Origin: a virus
Length of the DNA stretch: 64,000 bases
Direction: 5' to 3' (one strand)
Virus record (IMG/VR): IMGVR_UViG_3300011116_000796
Span: 55,655 to 119,654 of that record
Position 1 is the first letter of the stretch. The number at the start of each line of letters is the position of its first letter. Shown in pieces: positions 28,568 to 62,837 of this stretch. The position numbers were made by a program, and so were the translations under genes. The notes beneath the pieces were generated by a model. That model made no database searches. It had not been told where the DNA came from and saw nothing but the letters and a program-made list of their open reading frames with translations.

Positions 28568-31500
28568 ATGTCATTTCAGGTAAATCCAAACGACAGTTTT
28601 ACGCCAGACAATATATCAATTAATATTCCACCTTCATCTGGTCAGTCAGAGAGGGATCGTCAAAGATGTTGTGCGGACGCTGTTCAAAAATTACTTGAAA
28701 AACTCAGAAGACTTGAACTCACTAGTCCCATTCCACTTTTGAGTCGAAGAAATGGACTTCCTCCCATTCCGGAGGAATGTTCAAGCAATGCATGCAATGC
28801 GGCTTGCTTGAATTGGTTGGAGATGCTATGGAGATATATTTATAATCAACGTGATGGTAATGGCGATCTTAAAAACAAACAGGCTCTTGATGCTGTTTCA
28901 GAAACCCTATCAAATCGATGTTTCCCGAGGAATTACCCACCATCCCCACCAAAACCAGAGACTCGACCCCTGGTCCTTCCCGATTATAAAACAATAGATC
29001 CATCGCAACCCGATTATAAAATAATAGATCCGTCGCAAATAGGCAGACTTGATTGTTGTAGTCAATCTTTTAATAATCTTCTTGTTAAGTTGAAAGAGTT
29101 GACTGGTAAATCAAATATCCACGATATGGAGACCGAGTGGCTACATGCACCATGTACAGTTCAAGAAGTGGAAAGTGGTTCATGTATTCCGTATTCGAAA
29201 CGATTAGAACTAAAAAGACTTACAGATGGTCTTGATAAGAACTGTCAAAACACAAATCCAACCGGAGATCGAGAAGTCGCTGGCGCTTTAGCATGTCAGA
29301 GTAAGTGCAAAGAATACCTAGAGCAACTTTACAGTTGGTATCTGAATCTACCTGTTGAGCAACAATCCCCAAATCACTCAGAGATTCTGAGATTGATACC
29401 GGAAGCGTATAATAATCCATGTTATAACCGTAGTCCAGTTAATACTGGTGATTTTGTAGATACCGAAGGTTATTGGATTGATGCACCGGTACAGTATCGG
29501 TCTATTACCCCCGATACTTTGCCTGATGGTCTGAGTGTCATTGAGATTATACCAATAAACAATCCCGATTCTATCAGACCAACAAGTGATCGTGTAGTGC
29601 CGTTAGGATGGGAGTTCCGTCCTGAAATTTACGTTCGTGAGCAAGTTGCGAAGTGTTGCGCCGAACTACAAAGAATTAAAGACGCTTACAGAAATCAAAA
29701 CCCGCCTATTCAAGGGCTTCAGGAGTTAGATAGCAACGATTGTGATTTTCTTGATCAGGTTCGGGCTATCGTAAACCGTAATCCAAACGGTTTTGCTGAA
29801 CAACAGTTACAAAGAATGGCGAATAACTGTTTTACATTATGGAAATGGTGGACGGGACAATTACTGGAATCGGGAGATCCAGAATTGCCATCTGCGCCAG
29901 GATTACAGATCAGTCCAATAGTGGACCGATATAATCAATTCCTCAAACAATTGAAAGAATGGTGGAATACTCCCGAGGCGCAAAGAAACCCGAAGTGCCC
30001 AAATGGAGGGGTTGTTCATCCTAGCGACATTGAAAACGGCGTTGTTCCTTACTTGCCTCCTCCCGGTATAAGTATATGTGATTATACTTATTGCTACGCA
30101 TTGAATGGTGCAAGCGCAGAAGACGGTCCTCACGGACCACTTATGCCCATATTCTCACAAGGGTGGTGGCAATGGTGGAATACTAGACAGCGTGATGGTA
30201 AATCTTTGCCTGTACTGAATCCTAAATTCATGAAGAAATTGTTGAAGTCGTATCCACAATTTTTGGGAATTTCTTGCAGGCTGGCTGGAGTTTTGGAATT
30301 CAATCCAGAGCAACCTTGTTCAGTCCCTGCTGACTCAGGACTTAGCCCCACTCCAGGACCAAATAGACTAATTCGACCTGGTTATGGCGGCGATCATGGT
30401 TGTAGTTTCTATCCCCACCTATTCCCATCTGATGGGCAAGATTTGACCAAAAATTGTATGAAGGTGGTTGTGTATTATGGTGGGCAACAAAAGGTCATTT
30501 GTGTGTGTAAGGATGGTAGCCCAAATCCACTAATTCCAGGAGATCCACAACTTTGGAGAGAGTTTGAACCTCCGTTGCCCCCGACACCGGATGATGGACC
30601 AGGATTTACACCAACTTGGGCACCCGAAGGATGTAAGTGTATTGATTTACCATCTCCATTTCCAGGTATTCCAGGAAGTGGTTGCCCTCAACCTCCCGAA
30701 GGGTACAGATCGGCTAGTTTACCACTAGGCAGAGTGCCCCCATTCAGTTTTGTAAATGCAAATTCAACAATTGTTTTAAATTCATTGGCATACATTTCAA
30801 GCAATTTGTGGAAGTCTAGACAGAGCAGAGCAAAAGCATGCGCCGCACTAACCAAGGCAGGAGAATTGTATACTCAATACAACACCCTTTTGCCATCAGG
30901 AATTAAGTCGTGGCCCTTCAATTACTCTGACAAAAAAATTGCCGGAGAATGTGGATTCAATCCTCCTATTAATGGATACGATGGCGTTCCACTGTTCAAT
31001 TATGGTATAGATTGCGTTGGTGGAATTACGGATCCAAGATCACATATCAAAACCGTGATTGATTGGGTCAAGTGCCATAGAGATGCTGCTGCAAATAAAA
31101 AAGGCGTTGGCGGAAATGTGGGTCGATGGAACCATATTCTGAAACAATTTGAAGATCTTTATAATGAGGGTGAGGGCAGTTCATTTATCTATAGAAATGC
31201 AAGTGATGCATCTCTAGTGGAATATTCCTCGCCAGAAGAAGGAGATATTTTCACTGATTCAGTTGCGGGGGTATCCGATGCAGTCACACAAAACTGTCAA
31301 TCTATATTGGAAAGAAGACTGAAAACAATATCGTACAGATTAGCAATCATAAAATGCCTGATACAGAGATGCTTTAATAATTATTATTACAGTGATTGCG
31401 ACAATAATGGTGTCTGCACTACACCAAGAAACTTCAACAGTATGAGTGTAGTGGAAAGGGACAATCTTGAAAGAGAATTATTTGAATGTTTAAATTACTA

Positions 31501-32995
31501 TTCTCAAATGCTGAATTATCTATTGCCTGCTGAAGTGTTCGGTGGTGGAGGTGAGCATCTACGAAGACTTTTCCTGGAACTTCTAGGCAGTTATGTTTAC
31601 CTGCCCTATAACGACCGAACAATATTCAACATACGATTCTATCCTCCTAGTTGTTATCCCGAACGTTTGCCATGCGATGGATCATCAAATTCTATTGAGA
31701 GATTACGGTCGATTTCAGAGTGGCTTGACACAATATTTGGTCAAATTATACCTCAATTCATTAACGGTTTCGCCATGAAAACCCCGTGCTCACTTTATCA
31801 TATTCTAAAATCTGATTCATGGGGTACAAGCAGTTTCAATAATAGGTTTTTGGCAGTGGGTACACAGAGTATACAAGGATGTTTGGATTCGTCTGGGGCT
31901 GAAAATCCATATAATTTACAACCAAATCAAAAAATGCCTCCTGTTCCGGCAGGCTGCATAGAACGCATGAAAGAGTTGTGCGATAATTATCAAAACCATC
32001 CTTCGCATATCAGCAAAATTATACAGTGTGCGCTTGATAAATTAAAAACTCCACAAGGACTAGGATTGCTCTCCGATGAGTTATGCTTTCATAATTTCAT
32101 TGAATGTGATGAGAATGGTAATCCTCGCATGAAGTCTCTTCAAGAAATTCAGGATCACTTGAATAAATTATTCAAGAAATTGTTGGAATCTTGTTGTCGA
32201 AGTATTTCAATACAAGGGCGGCAAGCAGAGGAGGATAGAGGGGTGCAGAACCCTGATTATCAGTTTGGATGCTGTGATTATACATGTACGGAATACTGTT
32301 TAGCATCAGGTTGTGTAGATGACCCTAATACTCCTAGTGTTCAGGAGGATAGAGTTTCTTGCTCTACTATTGTAGAATATTTGATGGGGAATGTGAGTAC
32401 CACCCTACCTAATTGCTTCCCATGTGTAGGTGCCCGCCGCCCCGGACGCAGGATGGTTTCAAATTCCGATTCTCAGGATGGAGGGCTTCCGGATCCAGAC
32501 ACCAGTGGTCCAGGTGGGCCTGTCTTTAGTGATGACGCTATCTGTGGACAACTTATCATATCTACGACAGAAATTGTAGAAAATGGTTTAAGAAGACTAA
32601 GAGGCAATCAATCATCGGGTTTACCTAATGACGCACCTCAGATACCTCCCGTTCCCTCATTCTTTAATTGTAAAGAAGCATTTGAGGCGATTGAACGAAT
32701 TGGGGATAGTTTAGTTTGGTGCCATACCGGAATTCCGGCTTACGAGGCTCGGTGTCGGTTACACAAAGCCGCAATAGCGTGTTACCGAGAAATGCAAAGA
32801 ACAGGTAGTATGTCACTTGAATGCTATCAGAAACTTGAAGAGTATGAGAAATCGATTGAAGATTATAGAGATGGCTTGCTTGATCAAGGGGCACCCCCAG
32901 GGGTGGTGTTGCGGGGTGAAGCACAATATTTGTTGGAAGCAATCAGATATATTTTGGAAAACTGCATTGCGCTTCGAAAACCCATAGATCCGTAA
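28568..32995 (+). CDS. Giant Cys-rich repeat protein of the neck region (1475 aa)
   Basis: No known family recognised. The protein is built from recurring units that begin with a Cys pair and a helix and close with Cys plus Trp/aromatic helix: QRCCADAVQKLLEKLRRLE (res 32-50), LDCCSQSFNNLLVKLKEL (161-178), AKCCAELQRIKDAYRN (361-376), with partner segments such as ACLNWLEMLWRYIY and CFTLWKWWTGQLL. Pro-rich linkers separate them. Residues ~360-590 are matched in compact form by the whole of the next gene. There is no signal peptide or membrane segment. Start has AAAGGGG upstream. It is inserted between gp14 and gp15, so a collar, whisker or sheath-tip decoration is plausible. Codon usage looks like the neighbours. 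Confidence 0.78.
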   Translation: MSFQVNPNDSFTPDNISINIPPSSGQSERDRQRCCADAVQKLLEKLRRLELTSPIPLLSRRNGLPPIPEECSSNACNAACLNWLEMLWRYIYNQRDGNGDLKNKQALDAVSETLSNRCFPRNYPPSPPKPETRPLVLPDYKTIDPSQPDYKIIDPSQIGRLDCCSQSFNNLLVKLKELTGKSNIHDMETEWLHAPCTVQEVESGSCIPYSKRLELKRLTDGLDKNCQNTNPTGDREVAGALACQSKCKEYLEQLYSWYLNLPVEQQSPNHSEILRLIPEAYNNPCYNRSPVNTGDFVDTEGYWIDAPVQYRSITPDTLPDGLSVIEIIPINNPDSIRPTSDRVVPLGWEFRPEIYVREQVAKCCAELQRIKDAYRNQNPPIQGLQELDSNDCDFLDQVRAIVNRNPNGFAEQQLQRMANNCFTLWKWWTGQLLESGDPELPSAPGLQISPIVDRYNQFLKQLKEWWNTPEAQRNPKCPNGGVVHPSDIENGVVPYLPPPGISICDYTYCYALNGASAEDGPHGPLMPIFSQGWWQWWNTRQRDGKSLPVLNPKFMKKLLKSYPQFLGISCRLAGVLEFNPEQPCSVPADSGLSPTPGPNRLIRPGYGGDHGCSFYPHLFPSDGQDLTKNCMKVVVYYGGQQKVICVCKDGSPNPLIPGDPQLWREFEPPLPPTPDDGPGFTPTWAPEGCKCIDLPSPFPGIPGSGCPQPPEGYRSASLPLGRVPPFSFVNANSTIVLNSLAYISSNLWKSRQSRAKACAALTKAGELYTQYNTLLPSGIKSWPFNYSDKKIAGECGFNPPINGYDGVPLFNYGIDCVGGITDPRSHIKTVIDWVKCHRDAAANKKGVGGNVGRWNHILKQFEDLYNEGEGSSFIYRNASDASLVEYSSPEEGDIFTDSVAGVSDAVTQNCQSILERRLKTISYRLAIIKCLIQRCFNNYYYSDCDNNGVCTTPRNFNSMSVVERDNLERELFECLNYYSQMLNYLLPAEVFGGGGEHLRRLFLELLGSYVYLPYNDRTIFNIRFYPPSCYPERLPCDGSSNSIERLRSISEWLDTIFGQIIPQFINGFAMKTPCSLYHILKSDSWGTSSFNNRFLAVGTQSIQGCLDSSGAENPYNLQPNQKMPPVPAGCIERMKELCDNYQNHPSHISKIIQCALDKLKTPQGLGLLSDELCFHNFIECDENGNPRMKSLQEIQDHLNKLFKKLLESCCRSISIQGRQAEEDRGVQNPDYQFGCCDYTCTEYCLASGCVDDPNTPSVQEDRVSCSTIVEYLMGNVSTTLPNCFPCVGARRPGRRMVSNSDSQDGGLPDPDTSGPGGPVFSDDAICGQLIISTTEIVENGLRRLRGNQSSGLPNDAPQIPPVPSFFNCKEAFEAIERIGDSLVWCHTGIPAYEARCRLHKAAIACYREMQRTGSMSLECYQKLEEYEKSIEDYRDGLLDQGAPPGVVLRGEAQYLLEAIRYILENCIALRKPIDP
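28981..29038 (+). repeat. Two-copy 30-bp tandem repeat (DYKTIDPSQP linker)
   Basis: Two near-identical 30-bp units starting CGATTATAAAA encode DYKTIDPSQP and DYKIIDPSQI in a Pro-rich linker of the giant Cys-rich protein. It looks like a recent slippage duplication. Confidence 0.8.
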
Positions 32996-33024: not shown

Positions 33025-34071
33025 ATGGAAACCCCCAACATTAAAAATGTCTACTTACAAAATGTTAACATCTTTGGTGTTGGGGGATTTCCTATCAAAC
33101 CGAAAGATTACGTTGATGACTATTTCATTCCTTGGTTGAGGGAGGATTCTTTATGGGAGTCCAATCTCAAAAATTTAATCGATTGCTGCAATGCCAGGCA
33201 AGTAAAATTTTTACTTGGGGATGAGTGCTCTGAAGAGATTGATATACAATTGTCAATCCCAACAGACCACCCTGATTCCGAGGAGTTTCGAATTCTTGGT
33301 GTATCAGGATGTAAGAAACTACAGGAGTATTGGATAAATTGGTTTTCTCCTGTCAATGGCAAGAGTGAACAAGGAACTATTAGATTATGGAATAATTGGA
33401 GACAGTCGATAAATTCTCTTTCAGAATATTGGAAAACCACCCCTTCCGCAAAAATCTGTAAGGACATTGTTCATCCATCATTCATAGAAAGCGGCATGGT
33501 TCCTTACCTTCCTATGAACGGACTTCCGATCTGTGACTATACATGGAAGATAGCAATATGCGGTGGAGATGGTAATACAGATTTACACCCCCCCCACACA
33601 ATTCCCTTTAGCGAAAATTGGTGGATGGCTTACATAAATGCGAGAGTTGTCGGGAAAAAAGTGCCCGCAATAAATCCAGTTTGGTTTAATCGAATGTATC
33701 AAGAGTATGATAGAGGATTCCGAATATCATGTGTGTCTAAAGTATTAAGTGATCTGTCCGTAGATTGGCCTGGTGTGAGTTTCGGAGCGATCCCTGCTGG
33801 AGTAATTACATTCAACTCAAGTTCTCCTTGTACTGGATTGGGCAATTTGAATTCACTACCAACAGATGTCAAAAGGTGGAAAATTGACTCTTCGGACTAT
33901 AAAACTCCTTACATATTCACCGAAAAGCAAAATGTATTTTCGGGAGAGTGTTTAAATTCTGTTATTCCGATTGGATCTTCGATGCAGTCCCGATGTTTCT
34001 GTAAAAGCAAATTACATACTGTGAATGGCATAACAATTCGTGAATATACTCTGACGGAGAATTGTCAATGA
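33025..34071 (+). CDS. Cys-rich protein, compact paralogue of the preceding giant protein
   Basis: 348 aa. It aligns by eye with residues ~360-590 of the protein at 28568: CC pair (54-55), VHPSFIESGMVPYLP (149-163, versus VHPSDIENGVVPYLP), PICDYTW (168-174, versus SICDYTY), ISC (234-236) and a SSSPC segment near 265-269. The N-terminus is Trp-rich helix. No ribosome site of note precedes the start. Its stop overlaps gp15 (ATGA), tying it to the neck/tail-terminator transcript. Likely a virion protein of the neck; function unknown. Confidence 0.75.
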   Translation: METPNIKNVYLQNVNIFGVGGFPIKPKDYVDDYFIPWLREDSLWESNLKNLIDCCNARQVKFLLGDECSEEIDIQLSIPTDHPDSEEFRILGVSGCKKLQEYWINWFSPVNGKSEQGTIRLWNNWRQSINSLSEYWKTTPSAKICKDIVHPSFIESGMVPYLPMNGLPICDYTWKIAICGGDGNTDLHPPHTIPFSENWWMAYINARVVGKKVPAINPVWFNRMYQEYDRGFRISCVSKVLSDLSVDWPGVSFGAIPAGVITFNSSSPCTGLGNLNSLPTDVKRWKIDSSDYKTPYIFTEKQNVFSGECLNSVIPIGSSMQSRCFCKSKLHTVNGITIREYTLTENCQ

Positions 34072-43572: not shown

Positions 43573-44220
43573 ATGAAACTTATCACAGAAGTAAACGAAG
43601 GTATCGAAATCATCACCGAAGCCACAGCAAGTGGCGAGAAGAAGTACACCATTGAAGGAACATTTCTTCAGGGAGATATTACGAACCGAAACAAGCGTAA
43701 GTATCCGTTTGAGATGTTGAAGACGAAAGTCAATGACTACATCAAAGAGTTTGTCAATCAGAAGAGAGCATTCGGTGAATTGGGTCACCCAGATGGTCCA
43801 ACCATCAATCTTGAGCGTGTGTCGCACATGATTACTGAACTACAGGCTGATGGTAAGAACTTTTACGGTAAAGCAAAAATTATGGATACCCCATACGGAA
43901 AGATCGTAAAGAATCTTATCGATGAGGGTGCAAAGTTAGGTGTTTCAAGTCGTGGCATCGGTTCAATCGAAGAGAAGAATGGCGTAAATGTTGTTAAAGA
44001 TGATTTTCGCCTTGCAACCGCTGCTGACATAGTTGCAGATCCGTCTGCTCCAGACGCATTTGTTCGTGGAGTGATGGAAGGAAAAGAATGGATTTATGAG
44101 AACGGAATCCTCAAAGAAAAAGATATTGATGAGATCCGTCGTGAGATCAGCCGAACATCATCCCGCAAATTAGAGGAAGCCTGCATGAAGGCATTCCAAC
44201 GCTTTATATCGAAACTTTAA
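43573..44220 (+). CDS. 21: gp21-like prohead core protease
   Basis: 215 aa (T4 gp21: 212). Serine protease of the herpesvirus-assemblin-like class: candidate catalytic His in FGELGHPDGP (His72) and Ser in GVSSRGIGS (Ser125/126), with EGTFLQGDITNRNKRKYPFE at the start of the fold. It degrades the scaffold and trims gp23 during head maturation. The gene lies directly before gp22 and gp23 as in T4. Ribosome site AAGGAAC. Confidence 0.94.
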   Translation: MKLITEVNEGIEIITEATASGEKKYTIEGTFLQGDITNRNKRKYPFEMLKTKVNDYIKEFVNQKRAFGELGHPDGPTINLERVSHMITELQADGKNFYGKAKIMDTPYGKIVKNLIDEGAKLGVSSRGIGSIEEKNGVNVVKDDFRLATAADIVADPSAPDAFVRGVMEGKEWIYENGILKEKDIDEIRREISRTSSRKLEEACMKAFQRFISKL

Positions 44221-52641: not shown

Positions 52642-53673
52642 TCACTCTACCAAAGCAGGCTCGGATCCCTGCATCTGCTTGGTGAGCAAAGCCATGTCGT
52701 ACTTGTACATGATCTTGGCAAGGAGTTTCATATCCACCTTTGGTTCCCATCCAAGCACACGCTTGGCCTTTGATGGATCGCCAAGAAGGAACGGAACTTC
52801 GTTCGGACGGAAGTACTTGGGGTCAATGACAACATGCTTGTTCCAATCAAGCCCTGCCTCTTCAAAGACTTCGGTCAAGAACTCACGAACGCTGTGAGTC
52901 TTCTGCGTTGCAACCACATAATCATCTCCCTGTGGTTGTTGCAGCATAAGCCACATAGCCTCCACATAGTCCTCTGCATAACCCCAATCACGAAGTGCGT
53001 CAAGGTTTCCAAGGCGCAGTTCAGACTGCAATCCCATCTTGATTCTTGCAGCAGCCATCGTAATCTTACGAGTCACGAATGTCTCACCACGACGAGGACT
53101 TTCATGATTGAAAAGAATGCCTGACGATGCGTGAAGACCATATGCATTTCGATACACACGGGTCATGTGATGAGCATGAAGTTTTGCAACAGCATATGGA
53201 GACACAGGCATCATGATGCTATTCTCGTTATATCCGACCGAAGGATCATAGTCCTTGCTGTCGCCAAACATCTCAGATGAGGATGCCTGATAGAAACGAG
53301 TCTTGGGGCTGAAAGTGCGAATTGCTTCAAGAATCTTTAATGTTCCCGATGCAATACCATCACATGTGTACTCGGGAATCTCAAACGATACCGCAACATG
53401 TGACTGTGCAGCAAGGTTGTAGAATTCATCAGGCTTATGTGTCATGATGACATGAGCGACAGCAGACCCATCAGTCAGATCAAAGTGATGCATCTTAAAT
53501 CTAGGATGATTGAAAAGGTGATCGATTCTTGTCGTACTGATAGATGATGTACGACGCTTGAGACCGATGACCTTATATCCCTTTGCCAAGAGCATGTCGG
53601 CAAGATATGAACCATCTTGACCATTTACGCCCGTGATAACAGCAGTCTTTCCATTCCAAATTTCATCTTGCAT
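52642..53673 (-). CDS. gmd: GDP-mannose 4,6-dehydratase
   Basis: 343 aa, full length for Gmd. Converts GDP-mannose to GDP-4-keto-6-deoxymannose, the first step to GDP-fucose, rhamnose-type and perosamine sugars. Extended SDR features: Rossmann GVNGQDG (residues 15-21), substrate-binding SSSEMFG (131-137) with catalytic Ser/Glu, and Tyr160-x3-Lys164 (YAVAK). The RDWGYAEDYVEAMWLM block is diagnostic. Start has GGAG upstream and a late-type promoter at 53714. Gmd genes are known in several T4-like cyanophages; together with the glycosyltransferase at 21736 it could feed glycosylation of virions or host glycans. Confidence 0.96.
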   Translation of the reverse strand: MQDEIWNGKTAVITGVNGQDGSYLADMLLAKGYKVIGLKRRTSSISTTRIDHLFNHPRFKMHHFDLTDGSAVAHVIMTHKPDEFYNLAAQSHVAVSFEIPEYTCDGIASGTLKILEAIRTFSPKTRFYQASSSEMFGDSKDYDPSVGYNENSIMMPVSPYAVAKLHAHHMTRVYRNAYGLHASSGILFNHESPRRGETFVTRKITMAAARIKMGLQSELRLGNLDALRDWGYAEDYVEAMWLMLQQPQGDDYVVATQKTHSVREFLTEVFEEAGLDWNKHVVIDPKYFRPNEVPFLLGDPSKAKRVLGWEPKVDMKLLAKIMYKYDMALLTKQMQGSEPALVE

Positions 53674-59175: not shown

Positions 59176-59421
59176 TTACTTTTTCTTTTGAAGCCGAATT
59201 GGAGTTATCGGTCTAGATTCCCACTCTTCGGGAAACTGACCTTCGAAGATTTCCTCGACCCAAAGTAGGGGCAATTCTTGTTCGACATCTCTACCGTCAA
59301 TATCACCGTAGAGCCAACAGTTTCCCTTTGCAAGATCGATTCTTTTGATTTCGTATTTGCCGCTGTCATCATCGTCGGAGATGTAGATCTTGTCTCCAAC
59401 CTTGAGTTTCGTTGTTTTCAT
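59176..59421 (-). CDS. Small protein, unknown (81 aa)
   Basis: Reads KLKVGDKIYISDDDDSGKYE and NCWLYGDIDGRDVEQELPLL: a compact beta barrel-like composition (KVGDKI is typical of small SH3-like folds), no signal or membrane segment. It overlaps the upstream PEP-CTERM gene (ATGA) and so is the third gene of the 60559-59176 unit. No family recognised. Confidence 0.65.
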   Translation of the reverse strand: MKTTKLKVGDKIYISDDDDSGKYEIKRIDLAKGNCWLYGDIDGRDVEQELPLLWVEEIFEGQFPEEWESRPITPIRLQKKK

Positions 59422-59879
59422 TTCGTATTACCCTTTCTCTTTCTTGAGAACGCTGCTAGACCAAGTGCGAGAATTGGAATTGCACTTGGAGATGGAATTG
59501 GAGGTGGGTATGTTACTGATATATCACCAATTTGGTTTGGAATCATCGGAAACGATACACTCTCCACTCTATCAAACTGAACAGGAATGTAGAGATCCTG
59601 ATTCATGGTCTGAATCGCCAACACAAGAAACTCATCATTATAGATCTTGTGTACCCAAAGCCCCGTAAATGAACCCATGAACATGGGCATATCATTCTGT
59701 GGGTAGTTGCTTACTGTTGGTAGGTAAAGAGCAGATGTAACAGGATTCGTGATCTGTGATGTAAAAGTGAAGACACTCGGATAGTTGTAAGAGTCTCCTA
59801 AGTAAACTGCTCCCTGATCTATAGTTCTTGAATATCTACCGGCAGAGTCATAAATCGTAGATGTTGAATATGAGATCAT
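59418..59879 (-). CDS. PEP-CTERM-like protein without signal peptide (153 aa)
   Basis: C-terminus IPSPSAIPILALGLAAFSRKRK is a clear PEP-CTERM-like tail. The rest is beta-rich (YPSVFTFTSQITNPVTSALY, EFLVLAIQTMNQDLYIPVQF). The start used here is the ATG that shares its A with the preceding stop (TGATG); a start 13 codons upstream within the previous gene is possible but no start yields a signal peptide. Either export depends on the preceding gene or an N-terminal part has been lost. The coupling suggests co-expression with the full PEP-CTERM protein upstream. Confidence 0.72.
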   Translation of the reverse strand: MISYSTSTIYDSAGRYSRTIDQGAVYLGDSYNYPSVFTFTSQITNPVTSALYLPTVSNYPQNDMPMFMGSFTGLWVHKIYNDEFLVLAIQTMNQDLYIPVQFDRVESVSFPMIPNQIGDISVTYPPPIPSPSAIPILALGLAAFSRKRKGNTK

Positions 59880-60559
59880 CACTTTCTCCGTCGATTTGAT
59901 CCAAGCGCACAACTGCACAGCGCAAGAGCAAATGTTCCAGGAGAAGGGACAACTTCCATGTAGTAGAAATTGTCCATGGCAAAATGCTTGCGGTATTTGC
60001 CCAACGAATCATCGATCTCATTCCAGATGTGCAATGTGTCGATTTCATACCCCGCACCATAACTCACCCATGATCGATATTCATTAGAAATACTTTGCCC
60101 ATAATCAAACACAGTATTTCCATCTCGGATTCCTTGAATCCTGATGTTTCCGTTTTCCCATATAGATGTAAACCAAGCACCAAAGAAGTGCCAGTTGTTT
60201 CCGCTTGCCAATCGAATTGACCAACGCACAGGTTCTGAGTGATAGTATTCGGTGTAATATGGAGTGAACGCTGCTCTTTGACCAATTACACCAATTGAAT
60301 AACTTCCTTCTTGAGCGATACTTGAGTTTGAATTGTAGTATCCCCAACCAGTGCTGTTCCAACCATTGCTATTCGCATATCGTGGTGGAGTGGGAACACC
60401 ATTCTCTAGGCATTCGAAACGAAGTCCCTGATATTTTTCAAGGAATCCTGCACCATTGAATGGTACACTCGGATCTTCCTCAAAATCAACTAGAGTGACG
60501 CTTGCGTTAGCAAAGCACGATGAAAGACACAGAGCAAAAAATCCATTGTAAATATTCAT
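59879..60559 (-). CDS. Exported PEP-CTERM protein (226 aa)
   Basis: Signal peptide MNIYNGFFALCLSSCFANA, mature part beginning SVTLVDFEEDPSVPFNG with a lectin-like beta composition (WSIRLASGNNWHFFGAWFTS, RSWVSYGAGYEIDTLHIWNE), and C-terminal VVPSPGTFALALCSCALGS plus NRRRK, a PEP-CTERM-like anchor. The pattern DFE...P.F.G.GF resembles extracellular glycan-binding domains of planctomycete PEP-CTERM proteins. AGGAAATC precedes the start. Heads a three-gene unit. Confidence 0.82.
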   Translation of the reverse strand: MNIYNGFFALCLSSCFANASVTLVDFEEDPSVPFNGAGFLEKYQGLRFECLENGVPTPPRYANSNGWNSTGWGYYNSNSSIAQEGSYSIGVIGQRAAFTPYYTEYYHSEPVRWSIRLASGNNWHFFGAWFTSIWENGNIRIQGIRDGNTVFDYGQSISNEYRSWVSYGAGYEIDTLHIWNEIDDSLGKYRKHFAMDNFYYMEVVPSPGTFALALCSCALGSNRRRK

Positions 60560-60612: not shown

Positions 60613-61671
60613 TTATAAAGGTGGAACAGAATTTGGCTGTATGGTGTAACTACCAAATTCCGCTAATAAGATTGCAAGGTCTGCTCCATCCACAACTCCA
60701 TTAAAATTAAGATCACAAATCGAATTAGTTTTACCGAAATTAGCCTGCATTACTGCAAGGTCTGCTCCATCCACATTCCCATCTTGATTGAAATCGGCTG
60801 CTTTTGCGGAGATTTTGGTTCTTGAAATTTGATAATCTTTGCTTACCTGACTTATGAGGGCATTTAGATTGTCCATCTCCGGTGGCCTAATATACCCGCC
60901 GCTCCACGAAAGACCTATAAGAATAGTATCATTATATTTGTCCAAGACAAAATATGGAGTTCCACTATCACCAGAGAATACCGAATAAAAACAATTCTGA
61001 GAGCACGTTAATGTCTCTGCACCTTCGTTAATCCCGTTCTCTCCAAGAATTACAGTCTGAGTAAATGAAAATGGGTAACTCAGTGGTGGATTGGTTTGCC
61101 ATGTCGCAACACCCATTTTACTTTTAAGACATTTTCCATTACAGTCATGGTACCAAATTGTGTGGCCTGTGGGGATGTACTGAACATCGGCAATCTTGTT
61201 GTAAACTTTTACATCATCCACGGGAACTGATTCACTAAATTCAAGAAGTGTACGATCAGTTGAGGTGTTGACTGTCACTTTTGAAACCATCATTGTGTAT
61301 TTTGTGCCGGACTTTCCAAGAAAGGTATAACTCTCATTTGGATTGGGATTGGGATTGGTTCCTCTATAGTGCGTACTAATTAATGCATGTTGTGGAGTGA
61401 TAAGAACCGCACATGGAACGCCTGTATTGTAATAGTTAATATTTGATTGATCATACGCTGATGCAGTAGTCGGTCCTCTTCGATAAAAAGACCGCTGTCG
61501 TAAACTCACACCAGACCAATCTACGGCAGCACCTTGGCATTGTGGATTATATGCAACAGGAACACCATTGCAGCAGCAGGGGCAAGTTGCTTGATTGGGT
61601 GGGGTGTAGACCGCTTCTGGATTGTATAGGTGAATGTCGTGAATTTGGGGTATGTAAGTTTTTACGATCAT
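60613..61671 (-). CDS. Trypsin-like serine protease fused to a type I dockerin (352 aa)
   Basis: Residues ~50-290 have the trypsin-fold triad: His101 (ALISTHY), Asp139 (STDRTLLEF) and Ser236 in FSGDSGTPY. The C-terminus has two Ca-binding dockerin repeats, DFNQDGNVDGADLAVMQANF (293-312) and CDLNFNGVVDGADLAILLAE (319-338), the GC-type form common in Planctomycetes. The N-terminus (residues 1-50) lacks a recognisable signal peptide and contains a CPCCC cluster. Dockerins attach proteins to cohesin-bearing surfaces. GAGGAAAG lies just before the ATG; a TATAAAAA box at 61716-61723 may be a late promoter. A phage-encoded protease with a host-type anchoring module is unusual. Confidence 0.85.
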   Translation of the reverse strand: MIVKTYIPQIHDIHLYNPEAVYTPPNQATCPCCCNGVPVAYNPQCQGAAVDWSGVSLRQRSFYRRGPTTASAYDQSNINYYNTGVPCAVLITPQHALISTHYRGTNPNPNPNESYTFLGKSGTKYTMMVSKVTVNTSTDRTLLEFSESVPVDDVKVYNKIADVQYIPTGHTIWYHDCNGKCLKSKMGVATWQTNPPLSYPFSFTQTVILGENGINEGAETLTCSQNCFYSVFSGDSGTPYFVLDKYNDTILIGLSWSGGYIRPPEMDNLNALISQVSKDYQISRTKISAKAADFNQDGNVDGADLAVMQANFGKTNSICDLNFNGVVDGADLAILLAEFGSYTIQPNSVPPL

Positions 61672-61748: not shown

Positions 61749-62837
61749 TTACTTTGCTCCCAAAACATCTCTTCCAAGAATGCCATTAGTGGTCAACATA
61801 TGGAAGGATGTATCTGCTAAAAGGTCGAAAGAAAGTTGCTCGTAAAATCCATTTGCTCCCCAAGGTGTTCCTTCGTGCCATAAACCTCTCTGTTGAGGGG
61901 GTGGGGTTGACGATCCATTCCACCCTGCCCGGGCACGACGGTCAGCGTCCATGACTTCAGATACTGCAACAGCACTAACATGACCATCAAAGAACAGTGT
62001 ATTTGGTGTGCTACTATTCCCTTGATTAAAGAACCAAGGAGTATATCCGCCAGCAAATCCGGGATTGAGTGGCCCACCGTCTTGATTCTGTAGCCAATAG
62101 AACTCAATCATGCGAGTCTTTAGTTCAGAATACTTTGCTTGACCCTGTGTAGGACACTTGTACCCTGCGGGAAGAGTATTAGGATTTCTAAATCCCTTGT
62201 CTGAAAGCACATCTGGGTTCCACAATGCGGCAGGACTCCAAACATATGTTGAAAACACTACTGCACCAGGTTGATTGGGAAGCAGAGTAAATTCGCCAGG
62301 ACTGCCTAGACCTTCATCTGCTCGTTCCATTGTCAGTTTGTCTTTTGGAGCAATAAAGGTTCGGTCATAGAAACGACCATTAATGTAACTATTGAACGCC
62401 TTTACATTAGGCAATCGGTAATAGCCAAAGCCTCCATTAGTGAAAGTCCACTCGTTTGGGTGGTACACAATCCAATTGTTGCACCCGCCTGGTTGTGTAA
62501 GCGGACACAAGCCGCCGCCCAACCAGTATCCGTACAGGTTTCCTTGACTGTCCCACCCCAAAATCTGTTGACCAGGACAGCCAATAGTATTCAGATACAC
62601 TTGGCAACTACCGTTAGCAAGACCAAAATCGTCTGCTGCTTGTGTAAACTGACGGTCAGCGTAATCAGCCCCGTAAGTAGCATTAGCAGCGGCAAGATTC
62701 CTTAGATTGCCAAGGCTTTGAGTCACTAGAGCAGCATCTCTTGCTCGTCCCAGTGCAGGAAGCAAAATTGCAATCAGTAGTGCGATAATGGCAACGACAA
62801 CCAACAACTCAACAATAGTAAATGCCTTCTTTTTCAT
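61749..62837 (-). CDS. Type II secretion/pilus-like pseudopilin (planctomycete type, 362 aa)
   Basis: N-terminal prepilin signal KKKA followed by FTIVELLVVVAIIALLIAIL, with Glu at mature position 5 as required for pilin assembly. A helix RARDAALVTQSLGNLRNLAA follows. The C-terminal TPNTLFFDGHVSAVAVSEVM fits the DG-type motif near the end of large planctomycete pseudopilins. Cleavage by a host PilD-like peptidase and assembly into a host pilus or secretion pseudopilus would be expected. Ribosome site AAGGAG. Such a gene is typical of planctomycete genomes; in a phage it suggests capture from the host. Confidence 0.88.
   Translation of the reverse strand: MKKKAFTIVELLVVVAIIALLIAILLPALGRARDAALVTQSLGNLRNLAAANATYGADYADRQFTQAADDFGLANGSCQVYLNTIGCPGQQILGWDSQGNLYGYWLGGGLCPLTQPGGCNNWIVYHPNEWTFTNGGFGYYRLPNVKAFNSYINGRFYDRTFIAPKDKLTMERADEGLGSPGEFTLLPNQPGAVVFSTYVWSPAALWNPDVLSDKGFRNPNTLPAGYKCPTQGQAKYSELKTRMIEFYWLQNQDGGPLNPGFAGGYTPWFFNQGNSSTPNTLFFDGHVSAVAVSEVMDADRRARAGWNGSSTPPPQQRGLWHEGTPWGANGFYEQLSFDLLADTSFHMLTTNGILGRDVLGAK

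Follow-up and report, generated by a model that had tools for sequence, protein, structure and literature searches.

What use does a phage have for a protease that ends in a dockerin, and to what would such an enzyme be docked? The binding of dockerin to cohesin ranks with the tightest interactions of natural proteins and is familiar from cellulosomes; to our knowledge, the role of such pairs elsewhere is largely open. The question is raised by a minus-strand reading frame at positions 60613-61671 of the window, i.e., the whole stretch of 64,000 nucleotides analysed here, which comes from an IMG/VR virus record of 119,654 bp that is probably incomplete. A first-pass annotation had read this frame as a phage-encoded, trypsin-like protease fused to a dockerin module.

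The gene and its surroundings

The frame starts with ATG, immediately preceded on its 5' side by GAGGAAAG, and encodes 352 residues; the plus strand at this position is riddled with stops. That the gene is carried by a phage is borne out both by the source, a virus record, and by the rest of the window, which encodes a T4-like terminase (about 54% identical to those of cyanomyoviruses), a gp6-like baseplate protein and a baseplate wedge. Genes for capsid, portal, sheath and tube were recognised via relatives, and their order is the same as in those relatives. The features that bear on the protease are as follows.

60613..61671, minus strand: whole gene of the predicted trypsin-like protease with dockerin (352 aa; signal peptide not apparent)
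61465..61671, minus strand: N-terminal segment, aa 1-69 (from a 25-sequence alignment)
60814..61530, minus strand: predicted protease domain, about aa 48-286 (His101, Asp139, Gly234-Asp-Ser236-Gly-x-Pro)
60649..60801, minus strand: type I dockerin with its two Ca-binding repeats, aa 291-341 (Pfam, alignment)
61749..62837, minus strand: host-derived prepilin-type protein with N-terminal methylation motif, the upstream neighbour on the same strand
59879..60559, minus strand: downstream neighbour, of which phages L190 and G554 have homologues (apparent signal peptide, PEP-CTERM-like tail)
59418..59879, minus strand: frame with a PEP-CTERM-like tail, seen by inspection, and no apparent signal peptide (no family match)
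52642..53673, minus strand: GDP-mannose 4,6-dehydratase-like gene (found close to the protease in phage L188 as well, and in the close relative G556 at 86%)
43573..44220, plus strand: gp21-type T4-like prohead protease of the capsid block, as judged from its sequence and position (relatives 60-78% identical)

The dockerin protease gene thus lies outside the structural block, on the opposite strand, 12.6 kb past the tail-tube gene and amid host-derived genes. A relative of the prepilin-type gene is also found near the protease in L188, and the frame at 59418..59879 overlaps the stop of its neighbour. The T4 late promoter TATAAATA gave a single match, fewer than expected by chance, and therefore provides no late-gene evidence. 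A role in prohead maturation was rejected for the dockerin protease, given the separate gp21-type gene at 43573-44220.

Three PEP-CTERM-like frames are found in this phage (56696-57328, 59418-59879 and 59879-60559), the first of them 72% identical to a gene in virus G007. A search for an exosortase found none in the phage record; the five candidate host genomes have one apiece. The structural block also contains two Cys-rich proteins with stretches that are alike (28568-32995, 1475 aa; 33025-34071, 348 aa), neither of which matched PHROGs or Pfam. Finally, G554 (146,719 bp) has a PEP-CTERM homologue as well as the protease, and no match to the T4-like structural genes of the window phage; it is either another type of phage or has a part missing.

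Protease and dockerin domains

The first-pass annotation had named a complete His-Asp-Ser triad, and the three residues are found exactly where it placed them: His101 (in LISTHY), Asp139 (STDRTLLEF) and Ser236 (SGDSGTP). His101, Asp139, Gly234-Asp-Ser236-Gly and Pro239 are invariant in all 25 aligned sequences of the family, and in a wider set, 12 of 13 sequences keep the Asp. The His-Asp-Ser order, the GDSGxP motif and the spacing of 38 and 97 residues are shared with the PA-clan proteases of trypsin/chymotrypsin fold (PF00089, PF13365). Unlike those enzymes, however, the phage protein has no signal peptide, carries a distinct conserved N-terminal segment, and falls below Pfam Trypsin detection, with a sole family match at E = 0.14. 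The N-terminal segment is marked by the motif hxxYxPxxHD, in which Asp12 is invariant across the 25 aligned sequences; the window member alone among them has a Cys-rich insert there (Cys30, 32, 33 and 34).

Profile comparisons using hhalign, in which a profile of the phage proteases and one cellular homologue (L223) was aligned with bacterial trypsin-like domains from planctomycete genomes, gave P of about 9e-6, versus 0.12-0.82 for shuffled or reversed controls. The His, Asp and Ser are all in register with those of the bacterial trypsins. When the wider family profile was compared with the PDB, 46 of 47 matches with E up to 10 were trypsin-fold serine proteases, several of them spanning the whole triad; the nearest are S6 autotransporter proteases such as Hbp. 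The best of these matches has an E value of only 0.01 and each is weak alone; therefore, support for the trypsin fold lies in the consistency of the matches and not in any single one. Judging from these alignments, the gene product is most likely a chymotrypsin-fold (PA clan) serine protease. A search for a close host source of the protease domain returned none, and a single distant secreted homologue, L223.

The dockerin consists of two repeats, DFNQDGNVDGADL at 293-305 and DLNFNGVVDGADL at 320-332, which together account for the only Pfam match in the protein (Dockerin_1, E = 9.9e-7, 29.3 bits versus a cut-off of 22.9). The description of the gene as a trypsin-like protease joined to two dockerin repeats is thus upheld, except for the label 'GC-type' given to the repeats: the NCBIfam model dockerin_GC (NF041540) scores 20.4 bits, under its cut-off of 29. 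Cellulosomal enzymes with type I dockerins likewise have duplicated Ca-binding loops at the C-terminus that belong to Dockerin_1. The phage protein differs from them in that it has no signal peptide for secretion, is not a carbohydrate enzyme and is borne by a phage. It also has Gly-Ala at residues 10-11 of the loop, where the C. thermocellum dockerin has Ser-Thr. Gly-Ala at these positions, within GADL-type loop residues, is common to the phage dockerins and the host dockerins sampled.

A protease family and its likely hosts

Single-sequence searches of GenBank phages, IMG/VR, one-per-species genomes and plasmids returned no useful relative, and three weak matches in host-family genomes (L114-L116) were judged from their alignments to be due to chance. 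Relatives were instead recovered with a dockerin profile, built from the window protein and the dockerins of candidate hosts, followed by iterated family profiles. These reached 53 viral contigs. The close clade comprises about 31 distinct proteins, 29 of which have the dockerin; about 30 distinct phage relatives, at 30-46% identity, retain the triad. Within the alignment, the dockerin is found in 23 of 25 sequences; it is cleanly absent in L205 and replaced in L207, and is therefore not always needed. The first-pass annotation had made the dockerin assignment depend on the Ca-ligating residues of relatives, and these are kept in both repeats in almost all members. Pairwise dN/dS is about 0.08-0.31, i.e., the family is under purifying selection, and this, along with the retention of triad and Ca ligands in about 30 distinct relatives, is more than chance would produce. 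In the family tree, the deep position of the dockerin-less sequences is unreliable because their branches are long.

An apparent signal peptide was sought, by N-terminal hydropathy and inspection, and found neither in the window protein, as first noted, nor in 24 relatives: the hydropathy maximum ranges from -0.05 to 1.44 in these 25 members, versus 1.85-3.74 in neighbours with export signals. Among 50,697 GenBank phages there was no match to the window protein or to four diverse relatives. By these sequence criteria, the gene belongs to a new, conserved family of putative phage proteases with a dockerin anchor, found in freshwater phages that are uncultured, for the most part T4-like, and probably specific to planctomycetes as hosts. 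A search of a library of open-access papers on dockerins and phages turned up no account of cohesin-dockerin pairs in phages; one phage gene, in VvAW1, is mentioned as resembling dockerins by BLAST.

To which hosts does the system belong? The upstream prepilin-type gene (61749-62837), a pseudopilin with an H-X9-DG motif, is 97% identical to a copy in an otherwise different T4-like virus (L089/G007) and 80-81% identical to chromosomal genes in contigs of metagenome-assembled genomes (MAGs), mostly labelled planctomycetes and several of them from freshwater. In one of these, L082, three tandem copies lie by the genes for ArgRS and GroEL. These identities imply recent transfer from host to phage and sharing among phages. 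One source contig, L086, is titled as a Bacteroidia MAG; it has the planctomycete prepilin gene in a genome with 61 dockerin matches, and thus its title or binning is likely wrong.

The candidate host genomes, of 2.1-2.7 Mb, have 61-92 dockerin matches each, many near C-termini. Pfam Cohesin is over its cut-off in two of five such genomes, weaker in two and absent from one. In G008, the cohesin adjoins a gene with a lamin-tail domain (LTD), and a protein with HYR and dockerin domains is also present; dockerin repeats are found at the C-terminus of reprolysin and subtilase proteins in G008, G009 and G012. These features resemble the 'planctosome', a hypothetical cohesin/dockerin peptidase complex of the freshwater Nemodlikiaceae (CL500-3), whose mean genome size is 2.6 Mb (Andrei et al. 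2019, PMC6461901). The dockerin peptidases, the cohesin-HYR-dockerin proteins and the LTD proteins of the planctosome (PMC6461901) have matching parts in G008. LTDs were rejected as a sole host marker, as they are found in 9 of 20 comparison planctomycete genomes. Because LTDs are this common, and because no more than two of the five genomes have a Pfam cohesin match over the cut-off, our host assignment draws mainly on the one transferred gene. Freshwater planctomycetes with dockerin-rich genomes are the likely hosts.

The modelled planctosome consists of host metallopeptidases (M12B, M14) and of anchor and adaptor proteins with signal peptides (PMC6461901), whereas the phage enzyme is a putative serine protease with no such peptide. 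The phage family has in common with it a dockerin-bearing peptidase, and not signal-peptide export to the host surface. Since no N-terminal hydrophobic stretch is found in 25 members, we do not class the phage protein as a planctosome member; it might dock on one.

Where the protease may act

We propose that the product is a virion-associated serine protease, anchored by dockerin-cohesin binding to either a scaffold on the surface of the host or a cohesin of the phage, that aids adsorption or entry; we put the chances of this reading at about even. Specifically, a chymotrypsin-fold protease would ride on the phage particle, in the tail or baseplate region, and its C-terminal, Ca-dependent dockerin would act as a snap-fit anchor that plugs into a cohesin. 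The socket would be provided by the surface of the planctomycete host, i.e., by the proposed peptide-degrading planctosome, or in some relatives by a phage cohesin-like protein. So anchored, the protease would cleave protein on the surface of the host, thereby helping adsorption or entry. In this reading, the host, the location on the virion, the binding to a cohesin, the activity as a protease and its substrate are all inferred. Host anchoring, host surface proteins as substrate and a virion-borne enzyme had all been suggested at first pass, and are consistent with our findings, because the likely hosts are rich in dockerins and have some cohesins, some related phages encode a cohesin-like protein, and virion operons house distant relatives of the protease.

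These distant relatives are dockerin-less. Their lack of a dockerin and their unsure place in the family tree weigh against the proposal, as do the position of the window gene outside the structural block, the loss or replacement of the dockerin in L205 and L207, the few cohesin matches in the candidate hosts, and searches that found no cohesin in the window record and no relative among 50,697 GenBank phages. In L335, the gene order according to PHROGs is major capsid, tail tube, protease and UvsY, the last identified in the near-identical locus L336. In L339-L341, the relatives are found in apparent baseplate/fibre operons, in which a PHROG match, to a family of unknown function, was obtained for just one of the neighbours. 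Position in a structural operon is therefore a feature of L335 and probably of L339-L341, and not of the window phage. That distant relatives are inside such operons makes a virion role likely, and we take it as the more likely reading for the dockerin protease.

Alternatively, the protease might be made in the infected cell and act inside it, or be freed at lysis, whereupon its dockerin would fix it to the cohesins of nearby cells or of debris, and it would thereby alter surfaces or feed the community. The location of the window gene among host-derived genes for exported proteins (prepilin type, PEP-CTERM), at a distance from the structural block, would fit this scenario, as would the lack of a signal peptide, which implies that release would require lysis. 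A diffusible public good, however, would bring only a weak selective gain to the phage, and the capsid/tail operons that house the distant relatives also argue against an off-virion site, which we consider unlikely, though deserving of real weight.

To the virion-associated reading belongs the question of the socket. Cohesin-like genes were found in five phage lineages, by means of Pfam Cohesin, with values of 2.4e-8 and 9.4e-6 for two of the five proteins, and of a profile made from cohesin-like proteins of phages. In four of these lineages the contig also has the dockerin protease; the two genes are no more than 1 kb apart in L206 and L311-L313, and 3-4 kb apart in L203. By hydropathy, three of the five proteins have a signal peptide and two do not (L222, L231). 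The closest long-contig relative of the window phage that we found, G556 (capsid 82%, portal 82-84%, terminase 68%), has the protease, the cohesin-like gene, PEP-CTERM genes and a GDP-mannose dehydratase. Cohesins were sought in phage and host, as proposed at first pass: cohesin matches are found in some candidate hosts and cohesin-like genes in five phage lineages, and none in the window phage's own, probably incomplete, record.

Dockerins were also detected on baseplate wedge proteins (PF23786; L216 3466-9912 and L211 3826-6315), in numbers from 1 to about 29; the L216 wedge, a frame of 2149 aa, has 18 dockerin stretches according to Pfam and about 29 by frame search. These T4-like wedge proteins are, like the protease, phage proteins with no signal peptide; they have no protease domain, however, and the wedge of the window phage itself (4841-6949) has no dockerin. 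Large dockerin proteins adjoin the protease in L192, L194, L199 and L200. Two kinds of neighbouring protein were recorded.

L192 5362-7815, L194 7041-9113 and L200 3934-6327: protein of 690-817 aa directly downstream of the protease, with no signal peptide and dockerin-like repeats at its end (same family in L198, cut off)
L183 7320-8075, L189 2193-2930, L192 7841-8674 and L200 6366-7172: outer-membrane-barrel-like proteins with a signal peptide, near the protease (no Pfam match for the two that were tested)

It is conceivable that the dockerin binds the phage's own cohesin-like protein only, so that the protease stays attached to, or inside, the particle and host cohesins play no part. The co-occurrence of protease and cohesin-like gene in four of five lineages, the lack of signal peptides in the cohesin-like proteins of L222 and L231, and the dockerins on other signal-peptide-less phage proteins (L192, L194, L200 and the baseplate wedges) would all agree with this. 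Yet most contigs with the dockerin protease, which are mostly fragments, show no cohesin-like gene, nor does the window record, and the signal peptides of the other three cohesin-like proteins also speak against a purely internal role, making it improbable. Least plausible, and in our view very doubtful, is that the dockerin is a Ca-binding module acquired from the host that merely stabilises the protein and has no specific cohesin partner: host genomes with dozens of dockerins and few recognised cohesins, as well as the loss and replacement of the module in L205 and L207, could be so explained, but not readily the Ca ligands in both repeats of almost all members, the host-like GADL-type loop, or the phage cohesin-like genes that accompany the protease.

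A broader version of the virion-associated reading, which we put forward tentatively, is that phages adopted the bacterial cohesin-dockerin system as a modular means of attaching enzymes to the particle and of fastening the particle to the host. Dockerins on both proteases and baseplate wedges, with phage-encoded cohesins as the sockets, could possibly be seen in this light. In freshwater planctomycetes, cohesins and dockerins are abundant and unexplained; that a phage family keeps a dockerin protease under selection, and sometimes has a cohesin of its own, suggests that this surface system is of importance when phages attack. The phage genes also offer small protein pairs with which the binding partners of planctomycete dockerins could be measured. 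A phrase search of a library of open-access papers found no phage papers for the planctomycete phylum, and the dockerin protease and its associates may serve as marker genes for planctomycete phages. A fibre-like phage protein (L285 12285-13175) was also found to have a single dockerin half-repeat inserted (G543:C1:52783-52860).
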